Assembly: GCF_002148795.1 (NCBI RefSeq)
Contig: NZ_MPOB01000003.1
Span: forward strand, 310,001-374,000
DNA length: 64,000 nucleotides
Direction of reading: 5' to 3'
DNA from: Oceanibaculum nanhaiense
GTDB lineage: Bacteria; Pseudomonadota; Alphaproteobacteria; Oceanibaculales; Oceanibaculaceae
Position 1 is the first letter of the stretch, and every line of letters starts with the position of its first letter. The notes beneath the pieces were generated by a model. The model did not search any database, had not been told where the DNA came from, and saw only the letters and a list, made by a program, of their open reading frames with translations. The translations under genes were made by a program, and so were the position numbers. Positions 6,724 to 40,987 of this stretch are shown one piece after another.

Positions 6724-8508
6724 ATGCTGGGCTGGCTGCGCCGCGTGATCGTCGGCCTGTTGGCCCTTGTCGGCCTGGTGGTGGTGGTGGTGGCCGGCGG
6801 CCTCTATCTGCTGTCGGCGCAGCTTTTCGAACAGTATGAATCGCGCTGGCAGGCGCCGGAGATGCCGCCGCGCGTGCTGTTGCACCTGAAACTCGGCGGG
6901 CCGCTGCCGGAGCAGGAAACCGGTACGGTGCAGGCGCTCGTCCGGCGGCAGCATCAATCCAGCCTGCGGCAGGTCCTGGAGGCGCTGGACCGCGCCGCCA
7001 TCGATCCGCGCGTCGGCGGCATCCTTGCCGATCTCAGCCACGCCCAGCTTGGCCATGCGCAGGCGCAGGAGCTGCATCAGGCGATCCTGCGCTTCCGCAG
7101 TGCCGGCAAGCCGACCATCGCTTTCGCCGATACCTTCGGCGAGGGCCAGTCCGGCAACACCGCCTATTACATCGCCAGCGCCTTCGACCATATCTGGCTG
7201 CAACCATCCGGCGATATCGGCCTGACCGGCATATCGATGGAGTTCATGTTCCTGCGCGAGGCGCTGGACGAGCTGGGTATCGAGCCGCAGATGATGCGGC
7301 GGCAGGAATATAAGGGCGTGGTCGAGACGCTGACCGAACGCAGCCTGACCCTGCCGGTACGCGAAAATTACCGGCAGATCGCGGAATCGCTGTATGGCCG
7401 GATGATCGGCGACATCGCCATGCGCCGCGATATCGCCCCCGAGCGGCTGCGCGCGCTGGTCGACACCGCCCCGCTGAACGCGACGGCAGGGCTGGAGAAC
7501 CGCCTTGTGGACCGGCTGGGCTACCGCGACGAGGCACGCGCGGCGGCGCTGGCGCTTGCCGGCGGCGAGGCAAGGCCGATCACTTTGGGCGACTACGCCC
7601 GCACCCCGCCCGCGAATCCCGAAGCGCCATCGGCACAGATCGCGCTGATCACTGTCAGCGGCCCGATCGTGCGCGCAGCACCGGACGGGCTGTTCCGCGA
7701 GGATATGGCCGCCGCCGGACAACTGGCCGATGCGCTGGACGCGGCGGTGAACGCCCCGTCGGTGCGGGCGATCCTGCTGCGGATCGACAGTCCGGGCGGC
7801 TCCTATGTTGCCTCCGACAGCATCTGGCAGGCGGTCCGCCGCGCGAAGGAATCCGGCAAGCCGGTGGTCGCCTGGATGGGCAATGTCGCGGCGTCCGGCG
7901 GCTATTTCATCGCCATGGCGGCGGACCGGATCGTGGCGCAGCCGATGACGCTGACCGGCTCCATCGGCGTGGCCGGCGGCAAGATCGTGTTCGCCGGCGC
8001 ACTGGACCGGCTGGGCATCGGCCATGACCGGGTCGCGGCCGGGGAAAATGCCGGCCTGTACAGCCCGCTTGAACCCTTCACCACCGCCCAGCGCCAGCAG
8101 ATGGAACGCACGCTGGACCGCATCTATGCCGATTTCACCGGCAAGGCGGCAGCGGCGCGCGGGCTGGACAGCGTGCAGATCGACCGGGCGGCGCGCGGCC
8201 GTGTCTTCACCGGCGCCGATGCCGGGGAGGTTGGCCTGGTCGATGCAGTCGGCGGTTATGCCGAGGCGAAGCAGGCGCTGCGGACGCTGCTGACTCTGCC
8301 GCAGGGCGCACCGCTGAAGCTGCAGCCTTTCCCGGCGCCGGAAGACCCGTTCCAGGCCATGCTCGACCTGCTGCGCGGCGGCGACTTCCTGCAGGCGCTG
8401 TCCGGCCTGTCGCGGCTCTCGGCGCTGCTGACGCATTACGAGACAATGCTGGGCGGGGCGATGGAAGCGCCGCAGCCGCTGCGCACGCCATTACCGGAAC
8501 TGCGGTGA
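6724..8508 (+). CDS. sppA: Signal peptide peptidase SppA, 67K type
   Basis: Inner-membrane serine protease that degrades cleaved signal peptides. The 594 residues contain an N-terminal transmembrane helix (about 9-32) followed by two tandem crotonase-like peptidase domains, the long E. coli form. The catalytic dyad is split between the domains as in the family: K197 in QEYKGVVETL and the nucleophile Ser near residue 390 in GNVAASGGYF. TGSIGVAGGKIVFAGALDRLGI, read here only in part as TGSIGVAGG, follows. It is the last gene of the fabI-aroC-sppA run. Confidence 0.95.
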   Translation: MLGWLRRVIVGLLALVGLVVVVVAGGLYLLSAQLFEQYESRWQAPEMPPRVLLHLKLGGPLPEQETGTVQALVRRQHQSSLRQVLEALDRAAIDPRVGGILADLSHAQLGHAQAQELHQAILRFRSAGKPTIAFADTFGEGQSGNTAYYIASAFDHIWLQPSGDIGLTGISMEFMFLREALDELGIEPQMMRRQEYKGVVETLTERSLTLPVRENYRQIAESLYGRMIGDIAMRRDIAPERLRALVDTAPLNATAGLENRLVDRLGYRDEARAAALALAGGEARPITLGDYARTPPANPEAPSAQIALITVSGPIVRAAPDGLFREDMAAAGQLADALDAAVNAPSVRAILLRIDSPGGSYVASDSIWQAVRRAKESGKPVVAWMGNVAASGGYFIAMAADRIVAQPMTLTGSIGVAGGKIVFAGALDRLGIGHDRVAAGENAGLYSPLEPFTTAQRQQMERTLDRIYADFTGKAAAARGLDSVQIDRAARGRVFTGADAGEVGLVDAVGGYAEAKQALRTLLTLPQGAPLKLQPFPAPEDPFQAMLDLLRGGDFLQALSGLSRLSALLTHYETMLGGAMEAPQPLRTPLPELR

Positions 8509-8562
8509 CCGGCGCGACAATGCGCCTTCCTTTTGCCGCAGAAACCCGGCAAGGATAACAGC

Positions 8563-8985
8563 ATGATGTCCCGCACCCCGCACCTGTTGCTCGTCGCCCT
8601 GATGCTCGCCTCCGTGCTGGCCTTCGCCGCGATTACATTCGCGCCGATGACAGCCAGTGCGGCATCCGGCGGCAAATCGGATAGCGGCAGCACCGTGCGC
8701 TTCGTGAATGTCGGCCCCTATCTCATCAATTTCTATCTCGACGAGAAACCGGTCTCCGGCCGCCTGGCGCTCACCATCGAGGCTAAGGATCTGAATGCCC
8801 GCACCGCGCTGACCCAGAACAGCCAGCTGATCGATGCGATGCTCCTGCCGCTGGCCATCGAGCTCTATTCCCACGGCAGGCCCAGCCAGCAGCGTATCCG
8901 CACCTTCAAGCTGAAGGCGATCGAGGTGCTCAACCAGCAGTTCGGCAATGTCGTCAGCGATATCTATATCCGCAGCCTGATGTAG
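8563..8985 (+). CDS. Small membrane-anchored or secreted protein, possibly FliL-like
   Basis: The ATG at 8563, eight bases after AAGG, gives 140 residues. An earlier in-frame TTG at 8533 has no ribosome-binding site. An N-terminal hydrophobic segment (about 7-28, ending TASAASGG) is followed by a domain whose pattern resembles FliL: a VRFVNVGPYLINF strand, LALTIEAKDLNAR, an ALTQNSQLIDAMLLPLA helix, and a final NVVSDIYIRSLM. FliL proteins bind the flagellar stator, but no flagellar genes are adjacent. The assignment rests on pattern only; a generic periplasmic protein remains possible. Confidence 0.5.
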   Translation: MMSRTPHLLLVALMLASVLAFAAITFAPMTASAASGGKSDSGSTVRFVNVGPYLINFYLDEKPVSGRLALTIEAKDLNARTALTQNSQLIDAMLLPLAIELYSHGRPSQQRIRTFKLKAIEVLNQQFGNVVSDIYIRSLM

Positions 8986-8988
8986 GCA

Positions 8989-9729
8989 TCACGCCGTCTT
9001 GCGGCCGGCGATCAGGAATTCGCGATTGCCCTCCGGCCCCAGGATCGGCGACGGATCGATGCCCAGCACCGTCCAGCCCGGCTGTGCGGCCAGCCAGCCC
9101 GCGATGCGCTGGCATACCTCCTCATGCAGGTCCGGATCGCGCACCACCCCGCCCTTGCCGACACGTTCCTTGCCGACCTCGAATTGCGGTTTGATGAGCG
9201 CCACCAGAAAAGCGCCCGGCCCGGTCAGTTCCAGCGGCCGCGACAGCACCAGCTCCAGCCCGATGAAGCTGGCGTCGCAGACCACGAGATCGATGGCGTC
9301 GGGGATTTGCTCCGCAGTCAGATGCCGGGCGTTGGTCCGCTCCAGCACGACCACCCGGTCATCCTGCCGCAGCTTCCAGGCAAGCTGCCCGTGTCCCACG
9401 TCAACCGCATAGATTTTAGCCGCGCCGCGGCTGAGCAGCACGTCGGTGAAGCCACCGGTGGAGGCGCCGACATCGAGGCAGGTCATACCGTTCGGATCGA
9501 TTCCGAAATGATCTAACCCATGTTGCAGTTTCAACCCGCCACGCGAGACCCAGGGGTGATCCTGCCCCTTCAGTTCCAGCGGTGCGTCTTCCGGCAGCGC
9601 CGTGCCCGCCTTGTCCAGCCGCCTGGTGTCGGAATAGACCAGCCCGGCCATCACCAGCGCCTGGGCGCGGGCGCGGCTCTCCACCAGCCCGCGTTCCACC
9701 AGCAGCACATCGAGGCGCTTCTTCGCCAT
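8989..9729 (-). CDS. tlyA: TlyA-family rRNA 2'-O-methyltransferase / S4-domain protein
   Basis: A 246-residue protein with an N-terminal S4 RNA-binding domain (KRLDVLLVERGLVESRARAQ, about residues 3-60). An FtsJ-like Rossmann methyltransferase domain follows: CLDVGASTGGFTDVLL as the SAM loop, VVCDASFIG, and LVALIKPQFEVGKE with the catalytic lysine region. Family members methylate 16S/23S rRNA; some are annotated hemolysin A on historical grounds. It runs convergent to the gene on its left and sits seven bases after the deiminase-like gene, probably co-transcribed with it. Confidence 0.92.
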   Translation of the reverse strand: MAKKRLDVLLVERGLVESRARAQALVMAGLVYSDTRRLDKAGTALPEDAPLELKGQDHPWVSRGGLKLQHGLDHFGIDPNGMTCLDVGASTGGFTDVLLSRGAAKIYAVDVGHGQLAWKLRQDDRVVVLERTNARHLTAEQIPDAIDLVVCDASFIGLELVLSRPLELTGPGAFLVALIKPQFEVGKERVGKGGVVRDPDLHEEVCQRIAGWLAAQPGWTVLGIDPSPILGPEGNREFLIAGRKTA

Positions 9730-19304: not shown

Positions 19305-19901
19305 TCAGCTATTCTCCATGCCCTGCAGGACGATCTCGCCCTGCTCCAGGGCCTGTTTCAGCTCCTCGACGCCACGCCGGGCTTCCTCGTACATCTCGCG
19401 GCAGCGCGCGATCTCACGCATCTCGCCCTCGGTGACCGGGCCGCGACCGCTGGCGCCGCTGTCCAGCAGCTTCGCCAGGTAGCGGCCCCGCAACTTCGCG
19501 GCGATGGTGACGATGCCCTCGATCTCGCGGGCGGACACGTCCATGACGGTCTTGCGCGCCTCGCTGGCGAATTGCTGGCGCTGGAACCCATCCAGCTCGC
19601 GCAGCAGCTGCTGGCGGTTCACACCCTTGCGCGGCAGGCCGGCACCCTGCCCCTGCAGCCAGGCGGCCTGCGGCTCGGCCCGTTCAGTCCGCTCGGCGCC
19701 GCGGTCGGTGTTGCGCTCAGCACGCAGCGGCTCGGCCGGGCGTGCCGCCGGCTTGGCTTCCGGCTTCGCTTGCGGCTTTATCGCACGGATCGAAGGGCGC
19801 ACCGCCTTGGCGGGAGAAATCACAGGATTTTGCGGCGCATCGGCTTCGGTGCTGGCCTCGCGGCGCGGCGCGGCGAAACGGGTGGCGGTCATCAGAGACA
19901 T
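19305..19901 (-). CDS. Unknown protein; C-terminal domain paralogous to the 39570-39953 product
   Basis: 198 residues, not assigned to a family. A strong AGGAGGG lies five bases before the ATG. The first half (about 1-95) is a low-complexity, Ala/Pro/Lys/Arg/Glu-rich, probably disordered region with KPQAKPEAKPAARPAEP. The second half is helical and charged: QLLRELDGFQRQQFASEA, AAKLRGRYLAKLLDSG, GEMREIARCREMYEEARRG and ELKQALEQGEIV. This half lines up with the protein at 39570-39953, sharing LR..YLAK.L, a Gly-rich turn, then E...I...R..YEE. No signal peptide or membrane segment. It ends in its own terminator. Confidence 0.75.
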   Translation of the reverse strand: MSLMTATRFAAPRREASTEADAPQNPVISPAKAVRPSIRAIKPQAKPEAKPAARPAEPLRAERNTDRGAERTERAEPQAAWLQGQGAGLPRKGVNRQQLLRELDGFQRQQFASEARKTVMDVSAREIEGIVTIAAKLRGRYLAKLLDSGASGRGPVTEGEMREIARCREMYEEARRGVEELKQALEQGEIVLQGMENS

Positions 19902-20101: not shown

Positions 20102-21130
20102 TCAAAGGGTGCGGTAGCGGTCCACCCCATCCGCTCCGGTTTCGCGCGCCAGCCGGCCTTCATGCAGCAGCCGGTTCAGATGCGCCAGCGCCTCACCGAT
20201 GGCGAAACCGAGCTGCATCATGTCCAGCTTGCGGGTGAACATCGCGTTCATCACCTCGACGCCGGTGCGCGGCGTCCTGGCACAATCCTCCAGGATCAGG
20301 TCCAGCCGGTGCTGGTGATGCTGGCGCAGATTGGATATCCGTTCGTGTACGCCGGTGAAAGGCGTGTCGTGCGAGGGCAGCACCAGCGTGTCGTCCGGCA
20401 GACCGGCGAACCGGTCGAGACAGCCGAGATAGCGGGCCAGCGGATCGCCATCGGGTTCCTGCGGCCACAGCGAGACGTTCGGGCTGATGCGCGGCAGGAT
20501 GATATCGCCGGAGATCAGCAGCCTGTCCTCCGGGCAGGCGAGGCAGGCATGCTCCGGGCAATGCCCCTCGCCAATGATGATCTGCCAATCGCGGTTGCCG
20601 ATGCGGATCGTCTCGCCACCGAAGATACGCCGATAGGCTGCCGGGATCGGCTCCACCCCCTTGCGGTAGCGCCCGACGCGCTCCAGCAGCGCCGGCATCT
20701 GCTCCTCGCTGACGCCGGCGCGGGTGTAGAAGGCACGGGCGACGGCCTCGCGGCTGCCATCATCCTCGGCGCGCTGATGGCGGCCATAAAGCCATTCCGC
20801 CTGCGTCATCCACAGCGGCGCGTTCCAGCGCTGCGTCAGCCAGCCGGCCTGGCCGATATGATCGGGGTGAAAATGCGTGACCAGGATGCGCGTCACCGGG
20901 CGGCCGCCCAGCGTGCTGGCGAACACGCCTTCCCACAGGGTGCGGGTCTTCTCGCCGCCGATGCCGGTATCGACGATGGTCCAGCCCTCGCCATCCTCCA
21001 GCAGCCAGAGGTTGATGTGGTCCAGCGCGAAGGGCAGCGGCATGCGCAGCCAGTACACGCCGTCAGCCACGCGCATCGTCGTGCCGCCCTCGGGCAGCTC
21101 ACTGAACCGATAGTTGATTTCCGGCTTCAT
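20102..21130 (-). CDS. Metallo-beta-lactamase-fold hydrolase
   Basis: 342 residues. The dinuclear zinc motif HFHPDH is at 86-91 (THFHPDHIGQAGWL), preceded by the conserved TIVDTGIGG strand. Later ligands are in EGHCPEHACL and LISGDIILPRISPN, with VLPSHDTPFTGVHERI as the last histidine. A C-terminal helical region (RTGVEVMNAMFTRKLDMMQL, ALAHLNRLL) resembles the winged-helix tail of LACTB2-type and related hydrolases. The substrate, perhaps an acyl thioester or nucleic acid, cannot be specified. It stands alone in a leftward orientation between an unknown gene and the DUF1217 gene. Confidence 0.9.
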   Translation of the reverse strand: MKPEINYRFSELPEGGTTMRVADGVYWLRMPLPFALDHINLWLLEDGEGWTIVDTGIGGEKTRTLWEGVFASTLGGRPVTRILVTHFHPDHIGQAGWLTQRWNAPLWMTQAEWLYGRHQRAEDDGSREAVARAFYTRAGVSEEQMPALLERVGRYRKGVEPIPAAYRRIFGGETIRIGNRDWQIIIGEGHCPEHACLACPEDRLLISGDIILPRISPNVSLWPQEPDGDPLARYLGCLDRFAGLPDDTLVLPSHDTPFTGVHERISNLRQHHQHRLDLILEDCARTPRTGVEVMNAMFTRKLDMMQLGFAIGEALAHLNRLLHEGRLARETGADGVDRYRTL

Positions 21131-21262: not shown

Positions 21263-23671
21263 TCAGACGTTGAAGTTGAAATTGATCGGCTGGACCAGGT
21301 TCAGCAGATAGGCGTCCCTGCCGGAGCCCAGACCCAGCTGCGAGGTGGCGGACTCAGCATCCTTCATCGCCAGGAATTTCTGGATGAACTCCACGGCGAA
21401 CTTGCTGGACCCGGCATAGGGGTCCTCCGTTTCAGACGACTCGCTGCCGACAAACTGGGCCAGCGTCGCATCGACGATGCTCTTTTCCATCTGCTGCGTG
21501 CGCAGATCGGAATTCAGCGTCTCACGCACCCGCCCCAGCGAGAACAGCGCGTCGTTTAGCGCCGCGATGGCACCGGTGCTGTCACCGCCATCGCTTGGCA
21601 GGCCATCGGCCCCGCCACGCAGGATCGCACCGAAATTGGTCGCGAAATCACTGATCGCATCGACGCTCATAAGCCGGCCGCTGGATTCCACACGGTACTC
21701 AATGTTTTCCTGGTCAGCGGACAGCAGGTTCCGTCCCTCAAACGCGGCAGCGTTGATATAGGTCTGCAAATCGTTCGACAGCCTGCGATAGGCGCTGTCC
21801 ACCGCGGCGCGCGGGTCCAGCGTCTCCGACGCCAGGTTGAAGGAGCTGGCGTCGATGGAAATCTCGCGGAAGGCGGTGCTGGTGGCGGTCGCGATCTGAT
21901 TGTCCAGCGCGGTCAGAACGCCCTGGGCATTGGCGAAGGAACTGATGTCGCGGCCGGTCAGTTCGGCCAGCACGCTGGTCGTCAGATCGCGGCCGCGGGC
22001 CTCGATATTGAAACCGTTCAGCAGCTCGTAGCTCTGATTACCGCCGGCCAGCAGATTGTCGAGGCCAGCCGTGCGCGGATCGTTGATCAGGTCGCCGATC
22101 TTGCCGACAATCTCGTCATACTGGGTCTGCAAGCCGGTACGGTTGGAGCTGGCGGGCAGCGCGGTGGACTCCACCGCCAGGCCACGCAGTTCACCCAGCA
22201 GCAGATTGATCTCGCTCAGCCGCGAGCCGGCATCGCGTACCGCTTCCGCGCCCGGATAGAGCGATGCAGAATTCAGGGTCGCGGCGAATTGCGGGATCGA
22301 GGCAATCGCGTCCGTCAGCGCCGTGCGGTCGGCGGTGACTTCTTTGCGGACATTGGCCAGCTCCGTCGTGCTGCTGGTGACGATACCGCCCGCGGTCGCC
22401 AGATTGCCGGCGTCGCCGGAGCCGGTGACGGCCTGGAAGCTGGCGTTGGCGGCATCGATATCGGCCAGGAAGCCGGTGAGGTCCTGCGAGCGCGTGGTCA
22501 GGGTCTCGCCGGTCGATTTATACTGCACGGACAGGTCGGGCAGCGCGCCGCTCAACAGGTTTTCCAGCGTGCCGGCAGCATCCGCATCGCCGTCGTCATA
22601 GGAATAGGTCGCCTCACTATAGGCGGTGTTGATCTTGTCGCGCAGATCCGCGAACTCGGTCTTGTAGCTGTCCAGCCTGGCGGCGTTGGCGGGGTCGCTG
22701 GCGAGGCCGACCAGCGTGTTCATGCGGCTGACATAGCCTTGAATGCGGCCCAGCGAATCATTGGCGGCGGCCAGCAACCCGTTCTGGCGCACCATTTCGG
22801 GGATGGCGGCTTCCTGCACTGGGATTTCCGCCTGGAATTCGCCGGCCGGGTCCTGCACCGCATCCAGCGCGCCATAGCCGGCGCGGATCAGCTCAAGCTG
22901 GCTCTGGATCGCATCGACCTGGGCAATCGCCTGCTTCGACAGCTGCACGCCATTATAGAGCAGCGTCTGGTCGTCGCGCGCATCATCGATGCGGATCGAG
23001 CCGCTGCCCGTCTGCGCCGTGCTCTCCACACCCTTGAATTTTTCGAGGTCGAGCCGCCCTTCGATGAGCCGCGCCTGCGTTTCCACCGACTGCACGGCAA
23101 TCTGCGCCGGCAGGTTCAGCGTGAAGGTGACGACCGAGCGCAGCACATTGTCGCCCAGGATATCGTAGGGGCTGGTGACATTGCCGATATTGCGCAGGAA
23201 GTAGGTCGCCTCGCGCAGTGCCGGATTGTTGTTGCCCAGCGCCTTCTCGAACTCGTTGAGAATATATTTCTGCGACAGGTCTTCCAGGAAAGCCGCGTCC
23301 TGCAGCTTCGACATGCCGCTGTTCGCGAAGTCGAAGGCGCCGGCGATTTCGCGGTAGCGGTTGTCGGACAGCCGGTTGGCCAGCGAGCTGTTGTCGTCCA
23401 GGTCGCTTTCCAGCACCTTCTTCAGGCGCCCGGGATACTGCGCTTCGCTTTCCAGGCTGAAGGCCGACAGGGCAAAATTCATCAGCCGGCGATCCTTCAT
23501 GAGATCGTCCACGCTTTCGATGGAGCCGGCCTTTTTCTTGAAATACTCGACCTCGCGCATGACCTGCGCAGTCTGTCCGAACTGCGTGATCTGCTGCGAG
23601 GTGTTCTTCTGCAGCATCTGGAAGGAGAGTGCTGCGGAGACACCGCTCATATAGGCGACGTTGGCTACCAT
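21263..23671 (-). CDS. Large DUF1217-containing protein, probably flagellum-associated
   Basis: 802 residues. The N-terminal about 230 residues match the DUF1217 pattern: LKKVLESDLDDNSSLANRLS, REIAGAFDFANSGMSKLQDA, FLRNIGNVTSPYDILGD and LNLPAQIAVQSVETQARLIE. A long, helical, Asn/Ser/Thr/Gln-rich region of flagellin/hook-associated character follows (NRTGLQTQYDEIVGKIGDLI and AFEGRNLLSADQ near the end recall flagellin D0/D1 helices). DUF1217 proteins are often found in alphaproteobacterial flagellar loci, but none is adjacent here. There are no cysteines and no Sec signal, consistent with type III flagellar export. Role inferred, moderate certainty. Confidence 0.75.
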   Translation of the reverse strand: MVANVAYMSGVSAALSFQMLQKNTSQQITQFGQTAQVMREVEYFKKKAGSIESVDDLMKDRRLMNFALSAFSLESEAQYPGRLKKVLESDLDDNSSLANRLSDNRYREIAGAFDFANSGMSKLQDAAFLEDLSQKYILNEFEKALGNNNPALREATYFLRNIGNVTSPYDILGDNVLRSVVTFTLNLPAQIAVQSVETQARLIEGRLDLEKFKGVESTAQTGSGSIRIDDARDDQTLLYNGVQLSKQAIAQVDAIQSQLELIRAGYGALDAVQDPAGEFQAEIPVQEAAIPEMVRQNGLLAAANDSLGRIQGYVSRMNTLVGLASDPANAARLDSYKTEFADLRDKINTAYSEATYSYDDGDADAAGTLENLLSGALPDLSVQYKSTGETLTTRSQDLTGFLADIDAANASFQAVTGSGDAGNLATAGGIVTSSTTELANVRKEVTADRTALTDAIASIPQFAATLNSASLYPGAEAVRDAGSRLSEINLLLGELRGLAVESTALPASSNRTGLQTQYDEIVGKIGDLINDPRTAGLDNLLAGGNQSYELLNGFNIEARGRDLTTSVLAELTGRDISSFANAQGVLTALDNQIATATSTAFREISIDASSFNLASETLDPRAAVDSAYRRLSNDLQTYINAAAFEGRNLLSADQENIEYRVESSGRLMSVDAISDFATNFGAILRGGADGLPSDGGDSTGAIAALNDALFSLGRVRETLNSDLRTQQMEKSIVDATLAQFVGSESSETEDPYAGSSKFAVEFIQKFLAMKDAESATSQLGLGSGRDAYLLNLVQPINFNFNV

Positions 23672-28735: not shown

Positions 28736-29293
28736 TCAGCCCTTCCGTGATGCGGTGAGCACCGCCGCCATTTCCTGTTCCAGCGGCGCCTCCTTCCCAT
28801 CCTTCACCACGCCGACCTTCGGCACGATGCAGCCGATGATCGAGGTCACAGTGTCGCTGTCCGCCGACAGCGGCAGCAGCAGCCGCTCATAGGCGGCGAA
28901 CCAGAAATCCTTGTAGAAGCGCTGGGTCTGGCAGGTGGGTGCGCGGCTCTCCACCACCTCGCGATAGGCCGCGCCGGCGATGCGGCGGAACAGCGGATTC
29001 GGCATCTGATCGACATATTTGCCTTCGGGATTGCTGCCATAGAAGCGCTGCAGCGCCATCCCGATGGTGCGGTAGCGGAAGCGCGATGGCGCCCCATTCT
29101 CCGGCCAGACAACCTCGACATGCAGCAGATTCGGCAGCTCGTCCGCCAGATCGACCGGTCCGATACGGCCGGGATCGGGCATGCGGTAGCCGTCGGCGGC
29201 ATGCAGCCACAGCGCATAGAGTTTCTGCAGCCGCGGGCTGACGATGCGCATGGGGCGCGGCATTGCAGACGGCGCTGCCTTGGCGGGGGTCAT
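28736..29293 (-). CDS. Single-domain PAS_5-type protein
   Basis: 185 residues from the ATG at 29293, preceded by AAGGGA; a GTG at 29317 is a weaker alternative. A PAS-like sensory domain fills most of the chain: LYALWLHAADGYRMPDPGRI, VDLADELPNLLHVEV, FRYRTIGMALQRFYG, SNPEGKYVDQM. A C-terminal strand pair follows (YERLLLPLSADSDTVTSIIG). The pattern W..a....R.PdP..idp.dL...L matches the alphaproteobacterial PAS_5 family and each half of the tandem protein at 39965-40987. No output domain is present, so it may act through a partner. Divergent from the CinA-like gene. Confidence 0.8.
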   Translation of the reverse strand: MTPAKAAPSAMPRPMRIVSPRLQKLYALWLHAADGYRMPDPGRIGPVDLADELPNLLHVEVVWPENGAPSRFRYRTIGMALQRFYGSNPEGKYVDQMPNPLFRRIAGAAYREVVESRAPTCQTQRFYKDFWFAAYERLLLPLSADSDTVTSIIGCIVPKVGVVKDGKEAPLEQEMAAVLTASRKG

Positions 29294-29406
29294 TCTGCTG
29301 CTATCCCTTTCCTGCACGCATGAGGCGGCCTATCTTCTCCCGGCGCGCCCTTGCGTTTTCCTCTGCGGCCTGCATCCGTAAAGCAAGAAAGTTAAGGTTT
29401 CATCCC

Positions 29407-39569: not shown

Positions 39570-39953
39570 ATGCCGAAGATCACACGGGTCAATATCGGTG
39601 AGAAGGTCGATCACCTGATGTCACGCGACATGCTGGACAAGGACGCTCGTATAAAGCTGATCCGCTTCATGGAAGGCATCGAGATGTCGGTCTTCGCGGC
39701 CAACCGCGAGGTCATCCACAAGAAGGTGCAGAACCTCAATCAGCAGAACTTCCTGCGGCTGGCAACCCGCGTGGCGGAGCTGCGGGCCGACTATCTGGCC
39801 AAGGCGCTGACCTTCGCCGGCGGCGCCGGCCGGCCGAACGCCACGGAAATCCAGGAGCTGCGCCAGGCACGCGAAGCCTATGAGGAACTGATGCGCGCCT
39901 TCGAGGCGATGGAACGCGCCATTGAGCGCGGCTATACCGACATCGCAAGCTAG
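39570..39953 (+). CDS. Unknown small helical protein; paralogue of the 19305-19901 C-terminal domain
   Basis: 127 residues, soluble, no signal or membrane segment and no cysteine. The start follows GGGAGAG. It is almost wholly helical and charged, with likely amphipathic helices DARIKLIRFMEGIEMSVFAA, VIHKKVQNLNQQNFLRLATR, VAELRADYLAKALTFAGGAG, then IQELRQAREAYEELMRAFEA. The stretch from FLRLATRV to the end aligns with the C-terminal half of the 19305-19901 product (LR.DYLAK.L, Gly-rich turn, E...R.AYEE). It lies 11 bases from the convergent stop of the tandem PAS_5 gene. Function not recognised. Confidence 0.75.
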   Translation: MPKITRVNIGEKVDHLMSRDMLDKDARIKLIRFMEGIEMSVFAANREVIHKKVQNLNQQNFLRLATRVAELRADYLAKALTFAGGAGRPNATEIQELRQAREAYEELMRAFEAMERAIERGYTDIAS

Positions 39954-39964
39954 GACACCGGTCC

Positions 39965-40987
39965 CTAGCCCCGGAATTCCACGAAAATCAGAACGCGGTT
40001 CACGTTCTCTCCATCATCGGAGAGCGGCAGCAGGATTTCCTGGAACATCCGCATCTTTGGGTTCTCGCCAGCATAGTCCGAGCGGCCGAAGCGCGGCAAC
40101 TTCCCGTACACGACGGTCGCCAGCGTATCGAAGATAGTGTTGCCGGGCTTCTTCTCGTCGAATTCCCGGAAACTGCGGCCTTTCAGCCCCTTGCGCCCGA
40201 ACTTGCCGACATGCTCGCCGATCAGCCGGTAGCGGAAATCGAGCGGCTCGGCTTCCACGTCCAGCACCAGCGCATGGGGCAACAGCTTCGGGATATCGAT
40301 CGCATCGATATCGGTGAATCGCGGCATCCGGCGGTCCCCGCGAATCTGGTCCCAATAGGCGAAGCCCTCGTCCAGGACGCTGGAAGTGAAGCGCGGCAGG
40401 TTCACCGGCGCGTTAAGGTTGGACAGGCTGGAATCGCTGACTGCGACCGGTTCGACATGGTCGTATTTCGCCACCGTCAGCACATAGGCGACCTGCCCCA
40501 CCTCGTCGCAGAGCGGCAGCACGAGCGCCTCGTAACTGGTGCAGGTGACATTGTCCCACTTCGCGGTATTGCGGATGCGGTAGGGCAGCTTGCGCTCGAC
40601 GCAGAAACGCATGCGCTGACTGGTCTCCTCCGCGCCCTTCACCTCGTCGAGATAGCGCCCGCGCAGCTCGATACCGATATGCCGGGTGACCAGTTCGCCG
40701 ACCGTGCGCACCTTCAGGCGTATCGACTCTCCTCGCTCCACCTCAATCAGATAGAGCCAGGGCAGCAGCCGGCGCGGCAGCGTCGAGAAATCGAGGTCGA
40801 GGTAATGCGCATCGCCATCGGGGCGGCGCAACCGCTTCCAATATTCGAAAAGCATCTTCAGGTCCGGATCGATGGCCATCGCCGGATCGGCAATCACAAT
40901 GCCCTCGCCTTTCAATGAATCATAGACGCGCAACATCGTGTCCGATCCTGTCGGTCCCAGATTTCCAGGTACATATTTCATGGTCAT
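39965..40987 (-). CDS. Tandem PAS_5-type sensor protein
   Basis: 340 residues containing two copies of the same PAS-like domain. Copy one is about residues 45-180 (FEYWKRLRRPDGDAHYLDLD, LPRRLLPWLYLIEVE, TVGELVTRHIGIELRGRYLD). Copy two is about 205-340 (FAYWDQIRGDRRMPRFTDID, IPKLLPHALVLDVEA, FRYRLIGEHVGKFGRKGLKG). No kinase, cyclase or DNA-binding output domain is attached. Both align with the single-domain protein at 28736-29293. It probably senses a small ligand or redox state and acts through a partner. Divergent from phzF-like gene, with about 160 bases between starts. Confidence 0.8.
   Translation of the reverse strand: MTMKYVPGNLGPTGSDTMLRVYDSLKGEGIVIADPAMAIDPDLKMLFEYWKRLRRPDGDAHYLDLDFSTLPRRLLPWLYLIEVERGESIRLKVRTVGELVTRHIGIELRGRYLDEVKGAEETSQRMRFCVERKLPYRIRNTAKWDNVTCTSYEALVLPLCDEVGQVAYVLTVAKYDHVEPVAVSDSSLSNLNAPVNLPRFTSSVLDEGFAYWDQIRGDRRMPRFTDIDAIDIPKLLPHALVLDVEAEPLDFRYRLIGEHVGKFGRKGLKGRSFREFDEKKPGNTIFDTLATVVYGKLPRFGRSDYAGENPKMRMFQEILLPLSDDGENVNRVLIFVEFRG

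Follow-up and report, generated by a model that had tools for sequence, protein, structure and literature searches.

Two open reading frames in a 64,000-nt stretch of the Oceanibaculum nanhaiense genome (the window, meaning the whole stretch of DNA that was analysed) encode small proteins with a similar helical domain, which raises the question of how the two are related, how old their relationship is and what such proteins may do. The longer protein, hereafter type B, is encoded on the minus strand at 19305-19901 (coordinates that count the stop codon) and comprises 198 amino acids; the shorter, type A, is encoded on the plus strand at 39570-39953 and comprises 127. Directly 5' of the type B ATG lies AGGAGGGAAC, a good ribosome-binding site, while the codon-position differences from an Oceanibaculum relative (G003) amount to 17/12/57, the pattern of a coding frame, and the start MSL(M/L)T of the protein is kept in four Oceanibaculum species. 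These three features indicate that 19305-19901 is a real gene and that the long plus-strand open reading frame over the same stretch is its shadow. The type A gene is equally well supported, with codon-position differences of 5/1/35 against the same relative, whose type A protein is 96% identical to that of the window.

Type B is a two-part protein, as the original prediction had proposed from the sequence. Its Pro/Ala/Lys-rich arm, with abundant KP and AP, occupies the N-terminal ~90 residues and is predicted to be disordered (AlphaFold mean pLDDT ~50-60). The arm is followed by a C-terminal helical domain (19308-19634, minus strand; residues ~90-198) that is common to both proteins, and in which a three-helix bundle (residues 96-187) is well defined, with predicted helices at residues 96-118, 124-150 and 158-187. 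In type A a short tail precedes the predicted three-helix bundle (residues 24-52, 58-84 and 91-119; mean pLDDT 86). Alignment of the family revealed invariant or near-invariant positions in both forms, namely E126, R140, Y141, R168, E173, G188 and G194 in type B, and N45, A69, R72, A73, Y75, L97, R101, E106, G121 and Y122 in type A. The arm of type B varies in length across the family and is mostly rich in Pro and Ala, but short motifs with aromatic residues are found at either end of it: three lineages share a W-L immediately N-terminal of the bundle, and two families have W-[DE]-P-[YF] close to the start of the protein. In the type B protein of one genome (L087, from G097) the disordered arm contains several tandem copies of SSRDGL.

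That the C-terminal half of type B is homologous to type A had been proposed from shared motifs, which are indeed present (LRGRYLAKLL versus LRADYLAKAL, and CREMYEE versus AREAYEE), and this proposal holds. A single blastp comparison aligns residues 96-188 of type B with residues 27-121 of type A at 34% identity (E 2e-11). Comparison of profiles built for the two types likewise gave a significant score, with an E-value of 1e-8 for 13 and 5 rows and of 3.5e-16 over 106 columns of the helical domain for deeper profiles of 40 and 20 rows. The predicted structures agree with this homology, since the three helices follow each other in the same order, with identical topology and similar lengths. The original prediction had named two outcomes that would refute it, a lack of significant profile-profile similarity and a difference in helix topology, and neither was observed. 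Neither protein had suggested a recognisable function, an impression borne out by the library searches: Pfam, NCBIfam and PDB sequence searches returned no relative and yielded chance-level matches only (e.g. WWC1, DUF6212 and CasE), and the available annotation is "hypothetical protein", as it is for the short form on Azospirillum plasmids. The family is thus undescribed in the libraries searched. Foldseek searches of the PDB with the type A and type B models gave no match at E < 0.05, so that no mechanism can be read from the structure. The top match of the type A model is the periplasmic chaperone Skp (PDB 1u2m, 1sg2), which is helical like type A; however, the match is not significant (E 0.78, TM 0.41, rmsd 7 Å), and type A has no apparent signal peptide.

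Type A, the short form, and type B, the armed form, are two branches of an old alphaproteobacterial family of small three-helix proteins. In a tree of 65 core domains the two branches separate with support of 100/99. Among 386 sampled Alphaproteobacteria the A profile found members in 50 genomes, a few of these being B proteins, and the B profile found members in 37, of which ~24 are B; together the two profiles identify 55 carriers, including one borderline match (G234), and the family spans ~30 GTDB families of the class. Outside the Alphaproteobacteria a single member (G630) was found among 339 genomes of the phylum. The window's genome encodes exactly two members, one of each type, and several unrelated genera likewise carry one A and one B, each type usually being single-copy. 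Extra copies are rare, with two A genes in G358 and in G267. The deep split, the unrelated genera with one gene of each type and the rarity of extra copies show that the window contains a pair of old paralogues rather than the product of a local expansion. The two genes had been taken as a sign of an expanded lineage-specific family, which is not borne out; a recent expansion of this kind is ruled out by the well-supported split of A and B and by the usual count of one of each per genome. A local duplication is seen in a Rhodospirillaceae MAG (L021, near 8000-8900), where two type A genes lie on opposite strands within ~1 kb of each other.

The family co-occurs with flagellar genes. FliG was found in 49/51 carriers compared to 163/300 non-carriers (odds ratio 20.6, p 6e-10), FlgH in 48/55 carriers compared to 227/386 genomes overall (Fisher p 1e-6), and FlgH or FlhA in 46/51 carriers, all three counts ignoring phylogeny. 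The FliG signal persists at p ~2e-4 after a rough restriction to genomes of at least 2 Mb, an approximate correction for which the number of large FliG-negative genomes was estimated from 19 with a listed size. Seven carriers lack FlgH. Two of these (G047 and G061) have both FliG and FlhA and are therefore flagellated, as is, on the same grounds, the one carrier outside the class. The remaining five (G030, G072, G150, G211 and G337) appear to have no flagella, as judged from searches for FlgH, FliM and FlhA, which rules out a strict dependence of the family on flagella. In G030 only a broken FliM remnant is left, while in G072 all four flagellar genes searched for (FlgH, FliG, FliM and FlhA) are missing, although the genome is listed as 100% complete. 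G150, G211 and G337 have FliG; neither FlgH nor FliM nor FlhA was found in these three genomes, and their stand-alone FliG genes (L265-L269; contigs C45, C5 and C13 of G150, C16 of G337 and C92 of G211) lie amid metabolic genes, with three such loci in G150. Conversely, some flagellated relatives in the families f68, f26 and f52 have no family gene. The flagellated carrier G061 has five FliG matches (L270-L273 and L138), and a free 62-aa FliG C-terminal fragment lies 0.6 kb from its type A gene. This fragment is not a relic of a lost flagellum, since intact FliG, FliM and FlhA are present elsewhere in the same genome.

Some members of the family are also found next to flagellar genes. In the window, the type B gene adjoins a gene for a metallo-beta-lactamase-fold hydrolase (20102-21130, minus strand; PF00753, E 2e-34), and two genes upstream of type B lies a gene for an 802-aa DUF1217 protein (21263-23671, minus strand; Pfam PF06748, E 2e-44), which is a probable flagellar gene. 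By eye, the long C-terminal part of the DUF1217 protein resembles flagellins or hook-associated proteins, and NCBIfam gives it no name. All four Oceanibaculum species share this arrangement of the DUF1217 gene and type B, the hydrolase gene being kept beside type B in this genus only, and in G097 a DUF1217 gene lies 6 kb from type B, so that this proximity is seen in two families. Type B also lies within ~10 kb of a fliF/fliG/fliN-fliK cluster in two species of genus g165, and 7 kb from a fliG-fliN-flhA cluster in O. pacificum. The closest associations involve type A, which directly follows flgF-flgG-flgA-flgH in two species of genus g84 (G088 and G272; in the latter flgH spans 8665-9222 and type A 9255-9632), lies directly behind motA in G216, with ~15 nt between the genes, and is found behind ctrA-fliI-fliJ-tyrA-purU in Azospirillum thermophilum. 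A distance of ~6-8 kb separates type A from motA in three species of genus g64. Most family loci have no flagellar gene nearby: with loci merged into genera by hand, one was found within ~8 kb of 7/46 family loci compared to 4/80 among size-matched windows drawn at random from the same genomes (Fisher p 0.054; p = 0.10 once the two syntenic cases were merged), and the neighbourhood on its own is therefore suggestive only. A search for conserved neighbours found conservation limited to genera or close families. CtrA sites upstream of family genes were not enriched overall (7/90 compared to 5-10% of control genes), near-consensus sites being present in f115, f64 and f140 only.

Taken together, the co-occurrence and the two operons suggest that the A/B proteins, small three-helix-bundle proteins that are probably cytoplasmic, act as flagellar accessory factors, a reading that includes the binding model below and to which we tentatively assign a probability of about 45%, the highest of the readings considered. 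Of an earlier guess that such small charged proteins could be of a flagellar, chaperone or regulator type, the flagellar part gains support from the FliG co-occurrence and a few operons. The site of action would probably be the rotor/stator. From the shape of the proteins we infer a binding step in which the bundle would bind a helical stretch within FliG, MotA or a neighbouring rotor/stator or export component. In type B the long disordered arm, with its short conserved aromatic motifs, might tether another partner there as well.

The main rival to this flagellar reading is a real possibility, namely that these three-helix proteins have a general housekeeping or regulatory role in free-living Alphaproteobacteria, for instance as a small chaperone or a transcription or cell-cycle regulator, and that the link to flagella merely mirrors the occurrence of both in larger, free-living genomes. 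The many loci without a flagellar neighbour, the lack of a conserved neighbour beyond the genus and the five carriers without flagella, among them the apparently complete G072, would all be expected of such a protein. By contrast, it does not readily explain why FliG is present in 96% of carriers, which is far above background even after the approximate size correction, nor why type A is located inside flagellar operons in two independent genera. A role within the flagellum could also be that of an export chaperone of the FlgN/FliT/FliJ kind, which would keep a late export substrate unfolded or deliver it to the gate. FlgN and FliT are small and helical like the A/B proteins, and cytoplasmic, as the A/B proteins probably are. 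Size, all-helical make-up and charge agree with such a role, as does the location of type A close to fliI-fliJ in A. thermophilum and after flgH in g84. This identity is nevertheless unlikely, since the family matches none of the FlgN, FliT and FliJ models of Pfam and NCBIfam and no solved chaperone fold at a useful E-value, the flagellar cluster of the genome already includes a gene that looks FlgN-like by eye (L164, 16815-17276), and type A is kept in carriers with an orphan FliG that lack FlhA.

These orphan FliG genes raise the further idea that the A/B proteins serve specifically as partners of FliG-type rotor proteins, working at the motor in flagellated species and with stand-alone FliG where the flagellum has been lost, and thus acting outside the flagellum too. 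Indeed, stand-alone FliG is present in 3/5 non-flagellated carriers compared to 12/136 FlgH-less non-carriers (p 0.009), and FliG in multiple copies is commoner in carriers (11/49 compared to 13/163, p 0.009). However, both tests are post hoc, very few genomes are involved, mostly as draft assemblies, and the orphan FliG genes do not adjoin family genes, which makes such a partnership quite improbable.

If the flagellar reading is correct, the A/B proteins would be a new family among the flagellar accessory proteins, themselves a known kind, and an added component of the alphaproteobacterial flagellum, the motor of which carries lineage-specific parts. They would work like the flagellar motor accessory proteins FssF, FssA and FssB of Caulobacter, and MotE and MotK of Cereibacter and rhizobia, which are likewise small, lineage-restricted and found with flagella. 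FssF is a homologue of FliN, secretion signals are present in FssA and FssB (PMC11580411, PMC7885107), and MotK and MotE are periplasmic according to the title of the study describing them (PMC10954123). The A/B proteins, unlike FssA and FssB, have no signal peptide apparent by eye; FssA, FssB and FssF as names for the family are ruled out by what the papers describe (PMC11580411, PMC7885107). The flagellar claim is directly testable, as members occur in Azospirillum, a genus amenable to laboratory manipulation, and should the flagellar link fail, the family with its two clearly defined branches would still merit a Pfam entry. In the window, the type A gene converges with a minus-strand gene for a PAS_5 protein (39965-40987), which matches the MopJ family model below the cut-off, and by eye another PAS_5-like protein is encoded on the minus strand at 28736-29317.
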